From contig JAPDPX010000002.1 of the NCBI GenBank assembly GCA_034506255.1, positions 506,971-570,970 on the forward strand: a DNA stretch of 64,000 bases, given 5' to 3'. Origin of the DNA: a candidate division KSB1 bacterium. GTDB taxonomy: Bacteria; Zhuqueibacterota; Zhuqueibacteria; Zhuqueibacterales; Zhuqueibacteraceae. The notes below the pieces were generated by a model. The model was not told the DNA's origin and made no database searches. It saw only the letters and a program-made list of their open reading frames with translations. Position numbers and translations under genes: made by a program. This document shows positions 2,975-23,429 of this stretch, one piece after another (position 1 is the first letter of the stretch; each line of letters begins with the position of its first letter).

Positions 2975-4048
2975 TTATGCCGGATACAAGGGCGAGCCGA
3001 ATTTTGCAAGTCTCGGCATGAGTGCGCGGCGCAGCGTCCAGGTGTTGGCCTGACCCGCGTGCCCCAGCCAGCTCATTAGGGATTGCCGAATCTCCGGCAG
3101 TGAGATTTTTTGCCGGGCATACTTCTTTTGAAACTGCCGCATGCGCCGGGCAAAGCGCCGCACGTTTTCCGGCACCAGCAAGCGATGCCTCGGAAAAACA
3201 ATTTGTCCCAAAAATCGCTGCCCGCAATTAACCGGGCGAATCTGGCATTTCTCCAAGTAGAGTTTCAACCGAAAATCATTGAGACAGGTCTGCAATCGCG
3301 GCAAAAGCGATTGCAGATAAACCGGCGAATCATCGAGCAAGACGGCGTCATCGACATAACGCAGATAAAACCGGCAGCGCAGTTGCTCTTTCACAAAATG
3401 GTCAAAGGGATTGAGATAAACATTGGCGAAAAACTGGCTGGTCAAGTTGCCGATGGGCAGGCCGCGCCGCCGCTCGAAGGGCGCGAACAGATCGTCGCCG
3501 GGGAAATACCAGTTGGTTTCCACTTGCGGGTTGCTGCCGTCGATGATTCTGTCAATGAGCCAAAGTGTTTCCGGGTCGGCAGTAACGTGACGGATTTCGC
3601 GTTTCAAAATTTCGTGATCGATGCTGGGAAAATATTGGCGCAGGTCGATTTTGAGGAGGTATTTCGCCTGCCGCATGAAATGTTGCAGCCGGCGAATGGC
3701 GGCGTGGGTGCCTTTGCCGACGCGATTGGCGTAGCTGTCAAAAATAAATTGGCGCTCGAACAGCGGGCCGATGACATTGATGAGCGCATGGTGCACGACG
3801 CGGTCGCGAAACGGCGCGGCGCTGATCAGACGTTTCTTCGGCTCGTAAATGAAAAAGGCGCGATATTCGCCGGGTTGATACGTTTGGGCTTGCAGCTCGC
3901 GCAAAAGCTGCAGCGCGTTGTGCTCGAGGTCGTGAAAAAACGCCAGCGCGTGCGGACGGAAACGCTTGCCGGCGGCGGCTTTTTTTGCCGCCAGCAATAA
4001 ATTCTCAAACGAGCAGATTTTGGCGTAGAGGTTTTTGTGGGTTTTCAT
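2975..4048 (-). CDS. DGR reverse transcriptase
   Basis: The ATG at 4048 gives 357 residues starting MKTHKNLY; a GGAG Shine-Dalgarno lies 7-8 bases upstream, inside a palindromic repeat. Upstream in-frame codons run through that repeat and are less likely. Polymerase motifs occur in order: KKRLISAAPFRDRVVHHAL (71-89), motif A KIDLRQYFPSI with Asp135, motif B GLPIGNLTSQFFANVYLN (196-213), motif C YVDD (231-234), and FLGQIV (279-284). The SQ ending of motif B, in place of the QGxxxSP of group II introns, is the hallmark of DGR RTs. There is no maturase or endonuclease domain. The protein should synthesise error-prone cDNA from the TR RNA, working with the Avd-like protein encoded upstream. Confidence 0.95.
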   Translation of the reverse strand: MKTHKNLYAKICSFENLLLAAKKAAAGKRFRPHALAFFHDLEHNALQLLRELQAQTYQPGEYRAFFIYEPKKRLISAAPFRDRVVHHALINVIGPLFERQFIFDSYANRVGKGTHAAIRRLQHFMRQAKYLLKIDLRQYFPSIDHEILKREIRHVTADPETLWLIDRIIDGSNPQVETNWYFPGDDLFAPFERRRGLPIGNLTSQFFANVYLNPFDHFVKEQLRCRFYLRYVDDAVLLDDSPVYLQSLLPRLQTCLNDFRLKLYLEKCQIRPVNCGQRFLGQIVFPRHRLLVPENVRRFARRMRQFQKKYARQKISLPEIRQSLMSWLGHAGQANTWTLRRALMPRLAKFGSPLYPA

Positions 4049-4052
4049 GGAT

Positions 4053-4236
4053 AACTCCGATAGGAGTGAAATGTTTATAGAAACAGTGTTCCGGATTTGG
4101 GAACTCCGTAGGAGTGGCATGTTTTCTTGCTAAATGATCAAGGCGTGGTTTCAACGCAATGCGAAATGTCACTCCTACGGAGTTTAAGAGCTTTTGAAAT
4201 TCAAATGTCTATAAACATGTCAACCCCACGGGTTTT
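4053..4236. repeat. Cluster of four related palindromic repeats upstream of the RT start
   Basis: The unit contains an internal palindrome, ACTCC-GTA-GGAGT, followed by a tail like RCATGTTTATAGA. Copies lie at 4053-4084 and 4102-4124 in plus orientation and at 4163-4183 and 4204-4236 inverted; the last is diverged in the core (ACCCCACGGGTT). The second and third copies can pair over about 19 bp. Such short palindromic units dispersed between genes resemble REP/MITE-like repeats. The copy nearest the RT provides the GGAG Shine-Dalgarno of that gene. Confidence 0.6.
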
Positions 4237-4444
4237 ACGGCTTGTGCTCATTTTGGACGCGGCGGCGCTTTCGAGCCCGAAAGCCTACTCACGCCGCCAG
4301 GCCCGCACCGACCGCGCCGGTTGAGAGGCCGGGACGACCGGGCTTTGTTTGTGTGCCGCACGCTCACTTTTCATGCGGCCCAGCCGGAGGGAACCTTGTC
4401 ATGTTCAGTCGTCCATCTCCGAGTCCGTGAACGCGGAGCATTGG

Positions 4445-4461
4445 CCGGCTAAACTCGCCGG
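4445..4461 (-). other. Short hairpin just downstream of TR in the RNA
   Basis: CCGGC (4445-4449) pairs with GCCGG (4457-4461) around a 7-nt loop, 13 nt beyond the 3' end of TR on the minus strand. It may form part of the RNA structure recognised by RT and Avd. The stem is short, so this is a weak call. Confidence 0.3.
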
Positions 4462-4473
4462 TTTGGTTTGAGC

Positions 4474-4560
4474 ATGATTCGCCGACCACGCACACCCGGA
4501 AACCGTTGTTGTGGTTCCTGTTGTCGGGATTGTTGTTGTTGCGCCCCGACCCGCGAAGGT
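4474..4560 (-). repeat. DGR template repeat (TR)
   Basis: This 87-bp segment aligns without gaps to 5279-5365 at a constant offset of 805 bp; similarity stops abruptly at both ends. On the minus strand it reads in the VR frame as LRGSGR, then NNNNPDNRNHNN, then GFRVCVVGES, with the variable positions encoded mainly by AAC and AAT. It holds 23 adenines; 14 are replaced in VR and 9 are unchanged, while all 64 other bases are identical. Because the adenines sit in AAY, GAY, CAC, AGG, GAA or TCA codons, no single or combined adenine change in this frame can create a stop. TR lies 426 bp upstream of the RT start. Confidence 0.96.
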
Positions 4561-4802
4561 CGTTTCGGCTCCACCCCGTTTGCAACAAAAAGCAAACAGC
4601 AAACAGAAAAAAAGCAAAAAATTGATCGCTGAAATGCCGCAATAAGAATGTCATTCAGGAGGAATCCTGTTTGTAACCCGCACCGTGCTGATGACGAACA
4701 AGTTTCCTACGCGATGACATTTCTCTCCACCCGTAACTTGAGATGATACGCAGGCATCCTTTTTGAATTGAGCATGGTGCTGGAACTGAAAAATTCTTAT
4801 GG

Positions 4803-5171
4803 TTACTCTTCCGGACGTCCAGCGCCTGAAGGCGCCACTACGAACTTCTTCATCAGCCCGCCCAACATGCGGCCGATTTCATCCAAGCCTTGCGCGGCAA
4901 ATTCGTAGGAACCGGTGGTGATCAATTTCATGGAATGGCTTAGACGCACTAACAGCCGCAAAAAGAACAAATGCTCATCGGCTTTTTGCAGCAGCGGCAA
5001 TTTTTGTTTGCGATAGCTGGCCAGCGACACCAACTCCAAAAAGTCCAAAAACTGATTTTCAATACGCACCGCCATGGAAAACCGGCGGCTTTTGGGAAAT
5101 TTCTCGGTGTGGTTGAACAGCCATTGGCACAGATCGTAGCTTTTTTGCACGAGTTTCAATTCTTCTGCCAT
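4803..5171 (-). CDS. avd: DGR accessory variability determinant (Avd-like four-helix bundle)
   Basis: This 122-residue protein starts at an ATG with a perfect AAGGAGG seven bases upstream. Its composition is helical, with segments such as LKLVQKSYDLCQWLF, AVRIENQFLDFLELV, DEHLFFLRLLVRLSHSM and LDEIGRMLGGLMKKF, matching the four-helix-bundle family (23S rRNA intervening-sequence protein fold) that includes Bordetella phage Avd. Avd is a basic pentameric protein that binds RT and the template RNA. Its place between VR and TR is the usual one for avd. The family call is firm; the Avd role comes from that position. Confidence 0.88.
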   Translation of the reverse strand: MAEELKLVQKSYDLCQWLFNHTEKFPKSRRFSMAVRIENQFLDFLELVSLASYRKQKLPLLQKADEHLFFLRLLVRLSHSMKLITTGSYEFAAQGLDEIGRMLGGLMKKFVVAPSGAGRPEE

Positions 5172-5204
5172 AGTCAGCCTCCTTAAGTTTCAAAAAAATT
5201 TTCG

Positions 5205-5233
5205 AGGCAAAAACCGCAAAGCGGTTTTTGCCT
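5205..5233 (-). other. Perfect 13-bp hairpin downstream of VR (DGR cruciform or terminator)
   Basis: Positions 5205-5217 pair perfectly with 5221-5233 around a 3-nt loop; the core is GGCAAAAACCGC and its complement. It starts 35 bp after the target stop codon and 46 bp after VR. DGRs often need a hairpin or cruciform 3' of VR for target recognition. On the minus strand it is followed 11 nt later by a run of seven Ts, so it could also be an intrinsic terminator for the target gene ahead of avd. Both roles are possible. Confidence 0.6.
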
Positions 5234-5267
5234 TTTCAGGGGTTCAGTTGGTCAGGTATTCAGGATT

Positions 5268-8200
5268 TCAAAAGCTTGATGACTCGCCGACCACGCACAC
5301 CCGGAAACCGAGGCCGCGGTCCCAGTGGACGGGATTGATGAGGTAGCGCCCCGACCCGCGAAGGTGATCAAGGTCAGTCGTATAATAAGCGCCGCCACGC
5401 AAAGCCCGCCAATCATACGGTCCAACTTTACGCCAATTCTTCAACAAGTCGCGATCTTCCCCCAAAACAAAATCCGGCTTGTCCCATCCATTCAAGCACC
5501 ACTCCCACACATTGCCGGCCATGTCCATGAGGCCTTCCGGGGTAGCACCGGCAGGATAAGAGCCTACCGGTGTGGTGTGGCCAATTTTTTCGCCGTAATT
5601 GGCGCGCGTCTCATCCGGTTTCTCATTTCCCCAGGGATAAATACGCTTGCCGCCGGTCGCCGCCCATTCCCATTCAATCTCCGTTGGTAAACGAAACACC
5701 AAACTTTCTTTTTGCTTTTTGCTGTTTGCTTTTTGCTGTTCCGTCAGCCAGTCACAGTAGGCCATCGCCGCGTACCACTTTATGGCCGTCACCGGCTGAT
5801 CGTCGCCGAGAAAGCGTTTGTTAGTTTCCCTACTCTCATACTCTTCACGTTCTTCCTTAGACAACGATTCAAGGAAAAGGCGGTAGCGCTTGTTGGTCAC
5901 CGGGAATTTGGCAAAATACAAATCCGGCACTTTCACTTTCTTCTTGGTGGTAGAGAAGGTGTACTCACCGCCGCGGATGAGAATATATTCGGCGTTGTCT
6001 TCAAGGGGATTGAAGAAGCGGTCAGTTCGCGGGGTGATAACTGCCGGCGGCTTTTCCGACCATTCGATCAGAATCGCCTCGGCCAATTGGCGCAGGCGCG
6101 GCTCTTTGTCATCGTGCACGAATTTGACCAGCTCTTTGGCGGCATCGGAGCGCAACAGGCGCACACCCTGCAGGGCGTTGTAGCGTTTCTGCCAGCTCAA
6201 GCGCTTGTCGCGCAAGACTTTTTCAAACGGCGCCAGCGGCTTGACCGCGGCTTCCTGCAGCATTTGCAAATACAGCGGCGAGGTGGAGCCGTCGTTCTTT
6301 TCGTGCTTGAGAAAATTCTCCAAAAACGCCGGAAAGATCGTCGGGCTGGTGAGGCCGGCGGAGAACAAAACGGTTTCGCGCCACCAATCGTCGCCGAAAT
6401 TTTCCACCAGCACATTCGCCGCGTTTTGGTTGGCAATCTCAATCGCCGCCAGAAACTCACGAAAGGATTTGTGTTGGAAAGTGTAGGTCTCGGCGCCGGA
6501 GCCCACCAACACGCCGGCGCGGTCGCGGATGTTTTCGAGAAATTCAGCGGGCGGGGTGCCGGGCCGCACTTCCTGCAGCTTGGCGGCGATTTGGGCTTCC
6601 ACGTTGGCGCGGGGCGTTTCGTCCTCGCCTTGCTGCTGCATCCACAGCGCCAGCGGCCGCAGCACCAGTTTGGCCTTGGCCGCGCTCAGCAGCGGCTCGA
6701 TTTTCTTGGTGAGATCGCGGTGCTCGAGCAGATAATCGATACTGCGGTTGTACAATTCGACGCGCTCGCTCGACAGGCTGCCCTGCTCTCTCCATATGAT
6801 GGCCATGATTTGCAGGAGCACCGGAATGCCGGCCATGTCGGCGAGGGAGCGGTTTTCTTCCTTGCTGAGAAATTCCATGATCGCTTGGGCGTGAACCGCG
6901 GCGTCATGCTCGATGTCCTGCAAGCGGGCCGGATCATTGAGCTCGGCGGTTTCCAGGCTTTCCAAACCGGCGGCGCGGAACCATTGCTGCAAAAACGTAG
7001 CCTGCTGCCCGGTGTTGAGATCGAGCACATCGGCGCGGGTGTGCGGCGTTTGCAGAGCCACGCCCTCGGCCTCGCGGTAGCCGGTGAAACGACAGGTGAC
7101 GACAAAGGTGGATTCACCATAGGCGGGTGCGGCTTTGTCGATCCATTCGCAAATCAGGCGCCGGGTGTTTAAATCGCTGACTTCGTCGAGGCCATCGAGC
7201 AGCACCAATGCGCCGGGCTGATGCAACCAGGCGTCGAAATTCTTTGCGGTAATATTTTGATTATGCGATTTGGCCCACTTTGCCAGCGCTTCGGTGAAGG
7301 GCTTGGCGGGATTGATTTGGCGCAGCGGCACCAATATCGGGATCAACGGCCGTTGTAGTTGAATCTTGCTGCGGGTATCGGCCTCGAGACAGCAGATGGC
7401 AAAATATTTGAGCAGGGTGGTTTTGCCGGAGCCGGGCCCGCCGAGGATGAGCAGAGATTTTTCCTTCTGCATCGCCCGCGCTAAAACTTGCGGCGGGGTA
7501 AGGGTGCGCTCCTCACGCTCTTCCGGGGCGGGCAAGCGCTTCTTTTCCATTTCGCGCCATTGTTCAGAAAAACGCAGGGAGACGAAAACATCCAGCAGGC
7601 GCACGTCGATGTTGGCGTGGGAGAGAAAGCCGAACAATTTGATCTTGCCGTGCTCGTTGCGGACGAAGTTGAGGTAATGCTGGGTGAGATCGTCCGCCGG
7701 CAATTCTGGCGGCGGCGGTGGTTGTTTTTTCTGCAAAACTTTTTCGCCGTACTCGAACAGCAGTTTGGTGAGATCGAAGCGCACGCGGCGTTCAAAATCG
7801 TCGGTGGTGGCGAAAGGCTGCACAAGCCCCTGATGCGCCCTGTTCGCCTCGAATTGCTCAAAAAAAGTTTTTACGCACTTGTATTGGTCGGGATCGAGCT
7901 GATTGAGATCGACCGGCGGACGGGTGCAACGATAAAACATGATGCGCGGGCGACCATTCTTTTTCCACGAATCATAGGCAAGATTGAATTCTTCCTCGGT
8001 GCCGGAATCGTACGCTCTGCCGGTTTGCGGATCGCTGCCGCCGGTTGGGCTGCCGAAACGCAGCCATAGGATGCCGATGAAGATGTCCCACGATTTGACT
8101 TTCAATTCGTCGAGGATCACTTGTTGGGACCGGCCCATACCGGGCGTCACTTCGCGCCAGTCCAGGACTTTGAGCGTCACGCCCAATTGGTCAGCGACAT

Positions 8201-8315
8201 TGCCCTCGCGATTGAGTTCATCTGCAACGGCGCGAACCACGTCGCGCTCTTTGGTCACATCGCCGGGCGAGGCGAGGAAGATGCGGAGCTTTTTGTAGTT
8301 ATTTCCCGCGTTCAT
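5268..8315 (-). CDS. DGR target: DUF4062-NACHT NTPase-FGE/C-type-lectin protein
   Basis: This is a 1015-residue cytosolic protein with no signal peptide or membrane segment. Residues 8-190 form a DUF4062 domain (RIFLASPGDVTKERD, WDIFIGILWLRFGSP). Residues 285-420 carry a NACHT/STAND NTPase with Walker A GGPGSGKTT (292-300), Walker B VLLDGLDE (371-378) and VVTCRF (405-410). A helical, partly HEAT-like region follows. From about 735 comes a formylglycine-generating-enzyme (C-type lectin) domain with FRLPTEIEWEWAATGG, YPWGN and DMAGNVWEWC. The active-site cysteines of true FGE are absent near the LRGGAYY segment, so this should be a binding scaffold. VR forms its last surface loop. Such NTPases act as switches in conflict or defence systems; a diversified sensor is inferred. 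It starts 20 bp after the antitoxin gene. Confidence 0.92.
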   Translation of the reverse strand: MNAGNNYKKLRIFLASPGDVTKERDVVRAVADELNREGNVADQLGVTLKVLDWREVTPGMGRSQQVILDELKVKSWDIFIGILWLRFGSPTGGSDPQTGRAYDSGTEEEFNLAYDSWKKNGRPRIMFYRCTRPPVDLNQLDPDQYKCVKTFFEQFEANRAHQGLVQPFATTDDFERRVRFDLTKLLFEYGEKVLQKKQPPPPPELPADDLTQHYLNFVRNEHGKIKLFGFLSHANIDVRLLDVFVSLRFSEQWREMEKKRLPAPEEREERTLTPPQVLARAMQKEKSLLILGGPGSGKTTLLKYFAICCLEADTRSKIQLQRPLIPILVPLRQINPAKPFTEALAKWAKSHNQNITAKNFDAWLHQPGALVLLDGLDEVSDLNTRRLICEWIDKAAPAYGESTFVVTCRFTGYREAEGVALQTPHTRADVLDLNTGQQATFLQQWFRAAGLESLETAELNDPARLQDIEHDAAVHAQAIMEFLSKEENRSLADMAGIPVLLQIMAIIWREQGSLSSERVELYNRSIDYLLEHRDLTKKIEPLLSAAKAKLVLRPLALWMQQQGEDETPRANVEAQIAAKLQEVRPGTPPAEFLENIRDRAGVLVGSGAETYTFQHKSFREFLAAIEIANQNAANVLVENFGDDWWRETVLFSAGLTSPTIFPAFLENFLKHEKNDGSTSPLYLQMLQEAAVKPLAPFEKVLRDKRLSWQKRYNALQGVRLLRSDAAKELVKFVHDDKEPRLRQLAEAILIEWSEKPPAVITPRTDRFFNPLEDNAEYILIRGGEYTFSTTKKKVKVPDLYFAKFPVTNKRYRLFLESLSKEEREEYESRETNKRFLGDDQPVTAIKWYAAMAYCDWLTEQQKANSKKQKESLVFRLPTEIEWEWAATGGKRIYPWGNEKPDETRANYGEKIGHTTPVGSYPAGATPEGLMDMAGNVWEWCLNGWDKPDFVLGEDRDLLKNWRKVGPYDWRALRGGAYYTTDLDHLRGSGRYLINPVHWDRGLGFRVCVVGESSSF
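5279..5365 (-). repeat. DGR variable repeat (VR), codes for residues 984-1013 of the target
   Basis: Gap-free match to TR (4474-4560). Fourteen substitutions occur, all at TR adenines: 13 change ten codons (residues 991-993, 996-1002) and one is silent (GAA to GAG at 1011). TR Asn, Asp, Arg and His codons have become Tyr991, Leu992, Ile993, Val996, His997, Trp998, Asp999, Arg1000, Gly1001 and Leu1002. The downstream GFRVCVVGES is unchanged and would act as the initiation-of-mutagenic-homing side, as in known DGRs. Confidence 0.96.
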
Positions 8316-8335: not shown

Positions 8336-8569
8336 CTAAACGATGGCCGCTAAATCATATACTGGTGTCTTGATGGTGCGTTTGGGTTTTCTCTCACCCC
8401 AGACAGTTTTCTGGAGTTTTTCAACCGTTGCCGGGTCAAAATACTGTTCCCCGCATTGTTGGCAAACTTCGGCGGGCACATTTTCCACCACGACGGGTTT
8501 GCCCCGATAAAAAATGGAGTAACTGATCAAGGAGCGGACACGCGTGCCGCCGCAAATATCACAATTCAT
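8336..8569 (-). CDS. YgiT/MqsA-type zinc-finger antitoxin
   Basis: The ATG at 8569 overlaps the toxin stop (ATGA) and gives 77 residues starting MNCDICGG. Two CxxC pairs (Cys3/Cys6 and CQQC near residue 37) form the YgiT-type zinc finger seen in the N-terminal half of MqsA antitoxins; the pattern VVVENVPAEVCQQCGEQYF is diagnostic. There is no helix-turn-helix half, so this is the short form commonly paired with DUF4258 proteins. The gene ends 20 bp before the DGR target start, so the two may share a transcript. A longer frame to 8599 would overlap the toxin by 34 bases and is less likely. Confidence 0.82.
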   Translation of the reverse strand: MNCDICGGTRVRSLISYSIFYRGKPVVVENVPAEVCQQCGEQYFDPATVEKLQKTVWGERKPKRTIKTPVYDLAAIV

Positions 8570-8781
8570 TTTGGTTTCATCACTTTGAAATCGATCCATT
8601 CATCAGGATTAGGCTGGTAGATGGTAATGATTTTCACTTTTATTCGGCTGGGGTAAGAAGTCTGTACATGAAGCCAAGGACCAACAAAAGTTTGTCCTGC
8701 GATCAAGCAGCTTGGGCCATGCTTGTCTTGCGGGTAATCTTCGATAATCTCGCCATTTGAGATGCACTCTTTCATTCTCAT
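8566..8781 (-). CDS. DUF4258 toxin-like protein, probably shortened at the N-terminus
   Basis: The 71-residue frame matches the central and C-terminal part of DUF4258 proteins (CISNGEIIEDYP, GPSCLIAGQTF, LHVQTSYP, VKIITIYQPNPDEWIDF). DUF4258 genes often form toxin-antitoxin pairs with YgiT-type zinc-finger genes, and here the stop overlaps the antitoxin start by 4 bp. Family members normally begin 20-30 residues earlier with a helix containing a conserved His. That part is missing, and the sequence just upstream instead resembles the tail of the neighbouring DUF1028 gene. The toxin may therefore be inactive. The start at 8781 follows a poly-A run with no clear Shine-Dalgarno. Confidence 0.65.
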   Translation of the reverse strand: MRMKECISNGEIIEDYPQDKHGPSCLIAGQTFVGPWLHVQTSYPSRIKVKIITIYQPNPDEWIDFKVMKPK

Positions 8782-22636: not shown

Positions 22637-22709
22637 GCCACCATAGCTCAGACGGTAGAGCGCCTCACTTGTAATGAGGAAGTCGCGGGTTCGATTCCTG
22701 CTGGTGGCT
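22637..22709 (+). tRNA. tRNA-Thr (UGU)
   Basis: A full cloverleaf is visible: GCCACCA/TGGTGGC acceptor stem, GCTC/GAGC D stem, anticodon arm CCTCA-CTTGTAA-TGAGG (anticodon TGT), and GCGGG TTCGATT CCTGC T arm. Discriminator T. CCA is not encoded. Confidence 0.95.
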
Positions 22710-22747
22710 CGAGGTAGCGACACGAGCAGTGCTTGCTTTCAAGTCAA

Positions 22748-22829
22748 GGGGAGGTTCCAGAGTGGCCAAATGGGGCAGACTGTAAATCTGCTGGCTATGC
22801 CTTCGGAGGTTCGAATCCTTCCCTCCCCA
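22748..22829 (+). tRNA. tRNA-Tyr (GUA)
   Basis: Acceptor stem GGGGAGG/CCTCCCC, anticodon arm GCAGA-CTGTAAA-TCTGC with anticodon GTA, the long class II variable arm (TGGCTATGCCTTCGG region) and a TTCGAAT T loop. Discriminator A; CCA is not encoded. It lies 38 bp after tRNA-Thr, a common order in front of tuf- or secE-type operons. Confidence 0.95.
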
Positions 22830-22917
22830 CTCATTGTTGGGTGTGCACCACACACTGGTTGTGGATGGAACATGTCAGGGTGCCGGGCTGCAAGCTTGGC
22901 GCAAGAAATGCTCTCAG

Positions 22918-22990
22918 GCGGGAGTAACTCAGGTGGTAGAGTCACAGCCTTCCAAGCTGTTGGTCGCGGGTTCAAGTCCCGTCTCCCGCT
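22918..22990 (+). tRNA. tRNA-Gly (UCC)
   Basis: Acceptor stem GCGGGAG/CTCCCGC, anticodon arm ACAGC-CTTCCAA-GCTGT with anticodon TCC, T loop TTCAAGT. Discriminator T; CCA is not encoded. Confidence 0.95.
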
Positions 22991-23004
22991 CTTCGTGCAA
23001 GCAG

Positions 23005-23077
<73 letters not shown>

Positions 23078-23132
23078 CCATGTTGGTGTGGTAAGTATCC
23101 CGGATGATAATTAAGACAGGGTTTGACGCGCC

Positions 23133-23282
23133 GTGAGAGAAAACATCACCCTCGAGTGCAGTGTTTGCAAGCGCCGTAATTATGCCATGACCAAAAACAA
23201 GAAGACGCATACGGCGCGTGTGGAATTCAAGAAGTATTGCCGCTTCTGCAACAAGCATACTCTTCACAAAGAGTCGCGTTAG
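23133..23282 (+). CDS. rpmG: Ribosomal protein bL33 (zinc form)
   Basis: A GTG start gives 49 residues ([19 protein letters not shown] and on to HKESR), the normal bL33 length. Cysteines in ECSVC and YCRFC form the zinc-binding pair of the C+ form. The gene sits between tRNA-Thr and tRNA-Trp just ahead of secE, its common genomic place. The protein belongs to the large subunit near the E site. The Shine-Dalgarno is weak (ACAGGG). Confidence 0.93.
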
Positions 23283-23296
23283 CGCGGCTTCTGTGT

Positions 23297-23370
23297 AGGC
23301 CTGTAGCTCAACTGGCTAGAGCGCCGGTCTCCAAAACCGGAGGCTGGGGGTTCGATTCCCTCCAGGCCTG
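23297..23370 (+). tRNA. tRNA-Trp (CCA)
   Basis: Acceptor stem AGGCCTG/CAGGCCT, anticodon arm CCGGT-CTCCAAA-ACCGG with anticodon CCA, T loop TTCGATT. Discriminator G; the 3' CCA is not encoded. It lies between rpmG and secE, as in many bacteria. Confidence 0.95.
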
Positions 23371-23429
23371 CTACCGCAAACCTAGGCCACCGGCCACGTG
23401 ATCGTCACGAATTGCAGAAAGACCGCACC

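Follow-up and report, generated by a model that had tools for sequence, protein, structure and literature searches.

A diversity-generating retroelement that likely rewrites the sensor tip of a putative NLR-like suicide receptor in a candidate division KSB1 bacterium

We analyzed a stretch of 64,000 nucleotides from a candidate division KSB1 bacterium (assembly GCA_034506255.1, contig JAPDPX010000002.1, positions 506,971 to 570,970), hereafter the window. Its nearest named relatives are likewise labelled candidate division KSB1. Its minus strand carries a diversity-generating retroelement (DGR). The reverse transcriptase (RT) gene, the avd gene, TR, VR and the hairpin all lie where a sequence-only reading had placed them, and they follow the classical order that it described, target(VR)-Avd-TR-RT, as in phage BPP-1. 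The features are as follows.

5268 to 8315, minus strand: target gene, 1015 aa, with DUF4062-like, NACHT and FGE (C-type-lectin-like) domains and the VR at its 3′ end (from profile scores and model)
7716 to 8315, minus strand: N-terminal domain, residues 1-200, DUF4062-like, predicted TIR-like fold, with Glu109
6972 to 7454, minus strand: NACHT NTPase domain, residues 288-448
5298 to 5984, minus strand: FGE/lectin-like sensor domain, residues 778-1006
5279 to 5365, minus strand: VR, 87 nt, residues 984-1013
5205 to 5233, no strand assigned: hairpin, perfect 13-bp stem and 3-nt loop, 46 nt past the VR
4803 to 5171, minus strand: Avd accessory protein, 122 aa (NF033474, PF22296)
4474 to 4560, minus strand: TR, 87 nt, 23 adenines
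4250 to 4473, minus strand: conserved non-coding spacer after the TR, likely part of the template RNA (from identity to the relative L076)
2975 to 4048, minus strand: DGR RT, 357 aa (open frame from 4120)

The RT start had been read at 4120. Since the close relatives have 357 aa and align from the Met at 4048, the latter start is more likely.

The TR and VR align without a gap over 87 columns with 14 differences, all of which fall at the 23 TR adenines and none elsewhere. The chance that 14 random differences would all lie within those 23 of 87 sites is 1.5e-10. The same scanner found the TR/VR of BPP-1 (119 nt, 17 of 23 adenines changed, no other change). A TR/VR pair was detected in 31 of the 44 stretches around RT relatives (30 of 42 distinct ones, as two contigs are present twice), and several of the stretches lacking a pair are cut off within the cassette by the end of a contig. 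In the source genome (5.96 Mb, 20 contigs), one TR copy and one VR copy were found at E <= 0.001, and no TR/VR pair was detected in the four other stretches of this genome that were scanned (L061-L064). The TR permits change at 12 codons without any stop codon, which corresponds to about 6e11 proteins.

An A-to-G difference recurs at the 3′ end of the TR/VR in the window and in five other loci (L076, L082, L083, L085 and L086), and an A-to-C difference is found one step earlier in L072 and L073. This recurrent difference looks like a fixed end mark and may be likened to the IMH difference of BPP-1. Thus, one of the 14 differences is probably not a product of random mutagenesis. The TR/VR is 87-90 nt long in the window and in L076, a locus in the sister-genus genome G007, and mostly 95-132 nt in the other complete pairs. 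The short TR/VR is confined to the second variable cluster of the FGE tip.

The RT possesses the motifs IGNLTSQ and YVDD and scores 82.3 bits on RVT_1. Its nearest solved structure is 8ub7_A "Reverse transcriptase" (E 1.5e-56), which we take to be the BPP-1 enzyme; the RT is 37% identical to the BPP-1 RT. In a quick tree of 37 rows, in which some long branches were flagged, the RT clustered with 28 RTs of TR/VR-bearing loci, BPP-1 brt included, apart from four outgroup RTs (SH-aLRT 100). The outgroup consisted of two annotated group II RTs from plasmids and two other RTs of the source genome. The Avd scores 102.8 bits on the DGR model NF033474 DivGenRetAVD (cut-off 80) and 72.6 bits on bAvd PF22296 (cut-off 40). 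A group II intron or retron origin of the RT, with a repeat that arose by chance, is extremely improbable. The NCBI group II model gives 120 bits on the RT, under its cut-off of 300, but the adenine rule and the RT tree exclude this explanation. Furthermore, the match to 8ub7 is far stronger than that to the best group II RT (8.9e-18), and most group II RTs of the plasmid list align to the RT at just 25-29% identity. The adenine-only TR/VR differences, the place of the RT in the DGR clade and an Avd above the DGR cut-off thus bear out the earlier identification of the cassette as a complete DGR. The two other RVT_1 matches of the source genome were considered as DGR RTs and rejected, as they group with the outgroup and have no TR/VR pair nearby.

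The VR had been assigned to the 3′ end of an NTPase gene. This was confirmed: the target scores 42.1 bits on NACHT (cut-off 26.7), and the VR encodes residues 984-1013 of 1015. The target also scores 126.1 bits on FGE-sulfatase (cut-off 23.3). In the predicted model (pLDDT 86.3), residues 204-730 match NLRC4/NOD2, and residues 757-1015 match the DGR protein TvpA. The target therefore combines a NACHT NTPase with a P-loop and a predicted C-terminal sensor, the combination taken here to mark an NLR-like receptor. The strongest 19-residue hydropathy is 1.69, at residue 490 inside the NACHT module, and no strong membrane segment was detected; the protein is likely intracellular, as had been supposed.

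The N-terminus scores 19.7 bits on the DUF4062 profile, under the Pfam cut-off of 24.7; the relative P0125 reaches 24.9. DUF4062 is absent from the whole-protein domain list of the target. With the N-terminal model, TIR-like matches rank first, and GTPases and N-glycosidases match too; the top rank of Foldseek is a GTPase. Glu109, a candidate catalytic residue, is invariant in the 45 rows of the alignment. The PADLOC candidate defence model PDC-S60 gives 97.2 bits over residues 9-305. Judged from the model, the N-terminus looks like a TIR-like, DUF4062-like domain. The preprint of Osinski et al. 2026 (PMC13174449) reports that DUF4062 acts as an NADase in anti-phage defence. At 8336-8781 (minus strand), immediately upstream of the target, two overlapping genes encode an MqsA/YgiT-type zinc-finger antitoxin-like protein (32.9 bits, cut-off 30) and a DUF4258 protein (52.9 bits), with 20 bp between the pair and the target start; this toxin-antitoxin-like pair may share the transcript of the target.

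Related targets were also scanned for domains. Besides L076, 19 of 36 listed VR-bearing frames were scanned (17 from relatives of the class and 2 from a Fischerella plasmid). FGE was detected in 17 of them, NACHT over the cut-off in 10, CHAT in 2, Lcl_C in 2, and Mrr nuclease and DUF4062 over the cut-off in 1 each. Tips of this kind thus occur together with several domains that are familiar from defence systems. A target with an Mrr-type nuclease domain and NACHT-FGE lies at L087:2347-5433 (minus strand), and one with CHAT and FGE at L077:6095-8338 (plus strand). The Mrr-type nuclease and CHAT are possible other killing domains on the same kind of tip.

The target is best read as a putative NLR-like suicide receptor with a sensor tip that the DGR would rewrite. 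In this reading, RT and Avd together would copy the template RNA, placing random bases opposite its adenines, and the sensor tip would be replaced by the product. The new lectin-like tip would recognize a protein of an invader, the NACHT module would then assemble into oligomers, and the predicted TIR-like DUF4062 domain would destroy NAD+. All parts of the element, the adenine rule, the domain order and the tip variation within the A-to-N limits described below are read directly from the sequence; present activity, a ligand, oligomerization, NADase activity and the immune role of the receptor are what we infer. We consider it probable that the cassette, a complete DGR, works as a self-rewriting NLR-like suicide receptor. 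Given that the gene beside the template encodes a likely immune receptor, the bacterium could go on changing what this receptor recognizes.

The DGR may be real and the target a signalling or developmental switch, for example in partner or kin recognition, in place of an immune receptor. Such a switch would suit the occurrence of FGE-fold domains in enzymes and structural proteins too; one related target in the class (L088) bears PEGA repeats. However, the domain order is that of NLR-like defence proteins, the N-terminus is DUF4062-like, and domains of the CHAT, Mrr nuclease or DUF4062 type are present in related DGR targets. We therefore regard a switch as unlikely and prefer the suicide receptor.

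The sequence-only reading expected the VR to vary among relatives and the TR to stay constant. The tip indeed differs among independent relatives at adenine-coded residues, and in the syntenic relative L076 the TR is steadier than the VR (95.4% vs 80.5% identity to the window). We compared 16 targets with the same tail type. Entropy at the eleven adenine codons ranges from 1.56 to 2.75 bits. Of the 128 residues found at the eight AAC/AAT codons, 124 belong to the 15-residue A-to-N set, and the four misfits are all W at one codon. The AGG codon gives exclusively R, G and W in 16 of 16 tails, and A-to-N accounts for the GAC codon in 15 of 16. At the CAC codon, 9 of the 16 tails agree with it, and two frame positions after LRG vary without an adenine (H 1.01 and 1.88). 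Thus, the TRs of the relatives must differ there. Since the 16 tails were chosen by a pattern (LRG..R) fixing L, R, G, R and GFRV, the invariance of these residues is not counted as evidence.

The same data bear on whether the DGR is a relic in which retrohoming has ceased and the VR is fixed. The sole near-identical copy that was seen, with two target residues and one RT residue different, has the same VR residues, which tells against rapid change. Decayed relatives also exist, namely a relic in L063 of the source genome and L084 with its stop codons. In contrast, the RT, Avd, TR and target of the window are all open, TR and VR differ at 14 adenines and at no other site, and selection keeps the TR and the spacer. 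The near-identical copy may be a second assembly of the same population. A relic is thus quite improbable, and a working DGR is preferred.

The L063 relic (L063:1986-4892, G000:C3:83018-85861) is a target of the NACHT-FGE kind that aligns as two pieces with 49-63% identity. It has a VR-like tip belonging to a different tail type, as well as an Avd fragment that scores 22.8 bits, under the cut-off. No TR/VR pair was found near it. In P0122, the VR at the C-terminus continues into the reading found after the window's TR (SNQTGEFSRPMLRVHG...), which resembles a recombination between VR and TR; in P0139, a NACHT part is joined to an RT end. These two cases are either deletions or assembly jumps.

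In G007, the L076 cassette occupies the same site with the same two genes adjoining. L076 and the window agree in the genes downstream, in RT, TR and Avd, and in the last part of the target. Strong homology between the targets begins near 5415, about 50 bp before the VR; the bodies are 25% identical proteins, and the N-termini are without BLAST similarity. About 9 kb from its DGR, G007 also carries a disrupted relative of the body found in the window, ending in a different tail. Chimaeric assembly may explain single rows but hardly this syntenic pair, because the RT, Avd and flanking genes keep their order.

Since the G of LRG is coded without an adenine, this tail marks the TR lineage. In a body tree of 87 rows (122 sequences minus 26 without the C-terminal motif and 9 without the P-loop motif), LRG-tail targets fell into distant groups, with three changes. 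A single clade of LRG-tail targets was rejected (AU p 1.4e-6, lnL 478 lower) in a test of 39 rows, namely all 16 LRG targets and 23 others chosen by hand. We grouped 124 targets according to three features: an N-terminus of the DUF4062-like or L076-like kind, body A or body B, and an LRG tail or another tail. Of the 8 combinations, 7 were found, some with one member; 72 of the 124 have neither body. Furthermore, in one clade of 27 close RTs, the six body-labelled RTs imply three switches between body types, and starred branches enforce two of these. The labels of the window and L076 were read directly, and those of P0002, P0009, P0011 and P0013 were assigned indirectly, by matching RT and target records whose contigs are equally long.

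That one tail-Avd-TR-RT module occurs with more than one kind of receptor body is an observation from the sequences themselves. We see an even chance that the DGR lineage is a portable sensor-rewriting module, in which tail, Avd, TR and RT stay together and recombination beside the VR swaps STAND switches and suicide effectors, either the DUF4062 NADase or a different N-terminus. If so, NLR-like receptors would be built and re-aimed at two speeds: adenine mutagenesis would alter the tip quickly, and effector and switch would be exchanged slowly. The main rival is differential loss: ancestral tandem targets with different bodies shared one TR and were differentially kept, with no recombination at the VR edge. 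Clade 5D DGRs commonly have two targets, according to the relevant passages of Dore 2024, and in L095 one DGR serves two VR-bearing targets, of which one has DUF4062 and the other lacks it. However, the ORFs adjoining either cassette gave no sign of the other body, and the 7 of 8 combinations and the three changes in the RT tree need repeated events. We judge differential loss tenable, if somewhat doubtful. The L095 targets are DUF4062-NACHT-FGE (DUF4062 88.4 bits) and NACHT-FGE.

The amidohydrolase gene beside the cassette has a match in 6 of the 7 other genomes of the family. Among these six, DGR genes lie beside it in G007 only and were not found in G001-G005; in G003 the amidohydrolase gene is split across two contig ends. 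Thus, the cassette was either ancestral and often lost, or gained more than once.

Between L076 and the window, the 224 nt after the TR are 89.3% identical (200/224), compared with 84.5% for the RT gene (71% at third codon positions), 84.0% for Avd, and 82.3% and 74.6% for the flanking genes. A non-coding spacer that changes less than silent sites points to a functional RNA made up of TR and spacer. The predicted fold of the spacer is slightly better than that of shuffles (z -1.76). In a search of 63 class genomes for relatives of the spacer, the whole 363 bases aligned in L076 alone; the remaining matches consisted of fragments of the TR/VR or of short ends. Small palindromic repeats around ACTCCTACGGAGT lie at 4052-4237, between the TR spacer and the RT start. 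These are partly missing from L076, whose spacer is about 90 nt shorter.

As the sequence-only reading had stated, a hairpin follows the VR. The phage consensus, as outlined in part of Guo 2011, is a 7-10 bp GC-rich stem with a 4-nt GRNA loop, 4-34 bp after the VR. The window hairpin departs from this phage-type rule, which is not defining for all DGRs, in its 13-bp stem, 3-nt loop and distance of +46. In L076, the hairpin is at the same place with its flanks kept and its outer pairs different (7 bp with a TGC loop vs 13 bp with a TTT loop in the window). In BPP-1, the stem structure matters and not its sequence, as given in the same part of Guo 2011. A perfect stem of at least 7 bp was found after 14 of 30 listed VRs, a subset of those found, and 0.81 were expected from mononucleotide shuffles. 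The hairpin was also considered as an intrinsic terminator and rejected, as it is absent from the results of a terminator consensus scan.

DGRs diversifying FGE-type domains on NACHT/nSTAND proteins are known, and antigen sensing was proposed for them in the pertinent sections of Dore 2024 (PMC10907252), by whose own words this role is untested; domain shuffling among DGR loci within one genome is noted there as well. Those STAND-NTPase/FGE DGRs (clade 5D) resemble the window in having a NACHT/nSTAND target with the VR in a C-terminal FGE/CLec domain, a likeness of target layout. Their targets have peptidase, TIR, EAD8 or uncharacterized N-termini, and DUF4062 is unmentioned in the main text. 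Intragenic recombination of DGR targets was suggested in part of Roux 2021. In the relevant part of Kaur et al. 2020 (PMC7159879), DGR-FGE proteins are tied to conflict systems. The VMAP ternary systems described there also have a DGR-diversified FGE (FGS) in an NTP-dependent conflict system, but with FGE fused to vWA and three genes, whereas the window has a single STAND protein.

The portions of Osinski et al. 2026 considered here, which contain no mention of retroelements, describe Swarozyc/TEP1 DUF4062 NADases. These have a DUF4062-type N-terminus with an invariant Glu, to which the putative DUF4062-like N-terminus of the window's target with its invariant Glu109 may correspond. In TEP1, NWD1 and NWD2 DUF4062 precedes NACHT, an order that the window's target would share. 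Swarozyc senses the phage portal by a fixed HTH auxiliary domain; the window's target has NACHT and a DGR-rewritten tip instead. TvpA of Treponema denticola (2y3c) is unlike the window's target in that its solved chain of 278 residues has no NACHT or DUF4062 part. The BPP-1 DGR (AY029185) shares with the window the gene order, adenine-only differences and a hairpin past the VR, and differs in its phage tail protein target and in the 4-nt-loop hairpin near the VR. DUF4062 and a DGR together were not found in the open-access PMC literature, supplements being outside this scope; a DGR appears there together with a TIR domain and NADase in two papers, and together with KSB1 in one. New are the predicted DUF4062-like effector on a DGR target, the short TR/VR, the receptor-body exchange at one site, and a TR-to-RT spacer better conserved than the RT third codon positions. 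Because a probable NADase effector gives a simple readout (NAD+ loss), the adaptive-immunity proposal for STAND receptors, as set out in those sections of Dore 2024, would be directly testable.

Some further elements were observed in the window. Rfam at gathering cut-offs gave five tRNAs and nothing else; a five-tRNA cluster (Thr, Tyr, Gly, Thr, Trp) lies at 22637-23371 on the plus strand. A 30-nt inverted repeat (4583-4612/5709-5738) of the GCAAACAG/GCAAAAAG type has one arm beside the TR and the other inside the target gene, and pieces of it recur in G004, G006, G007 and G028.
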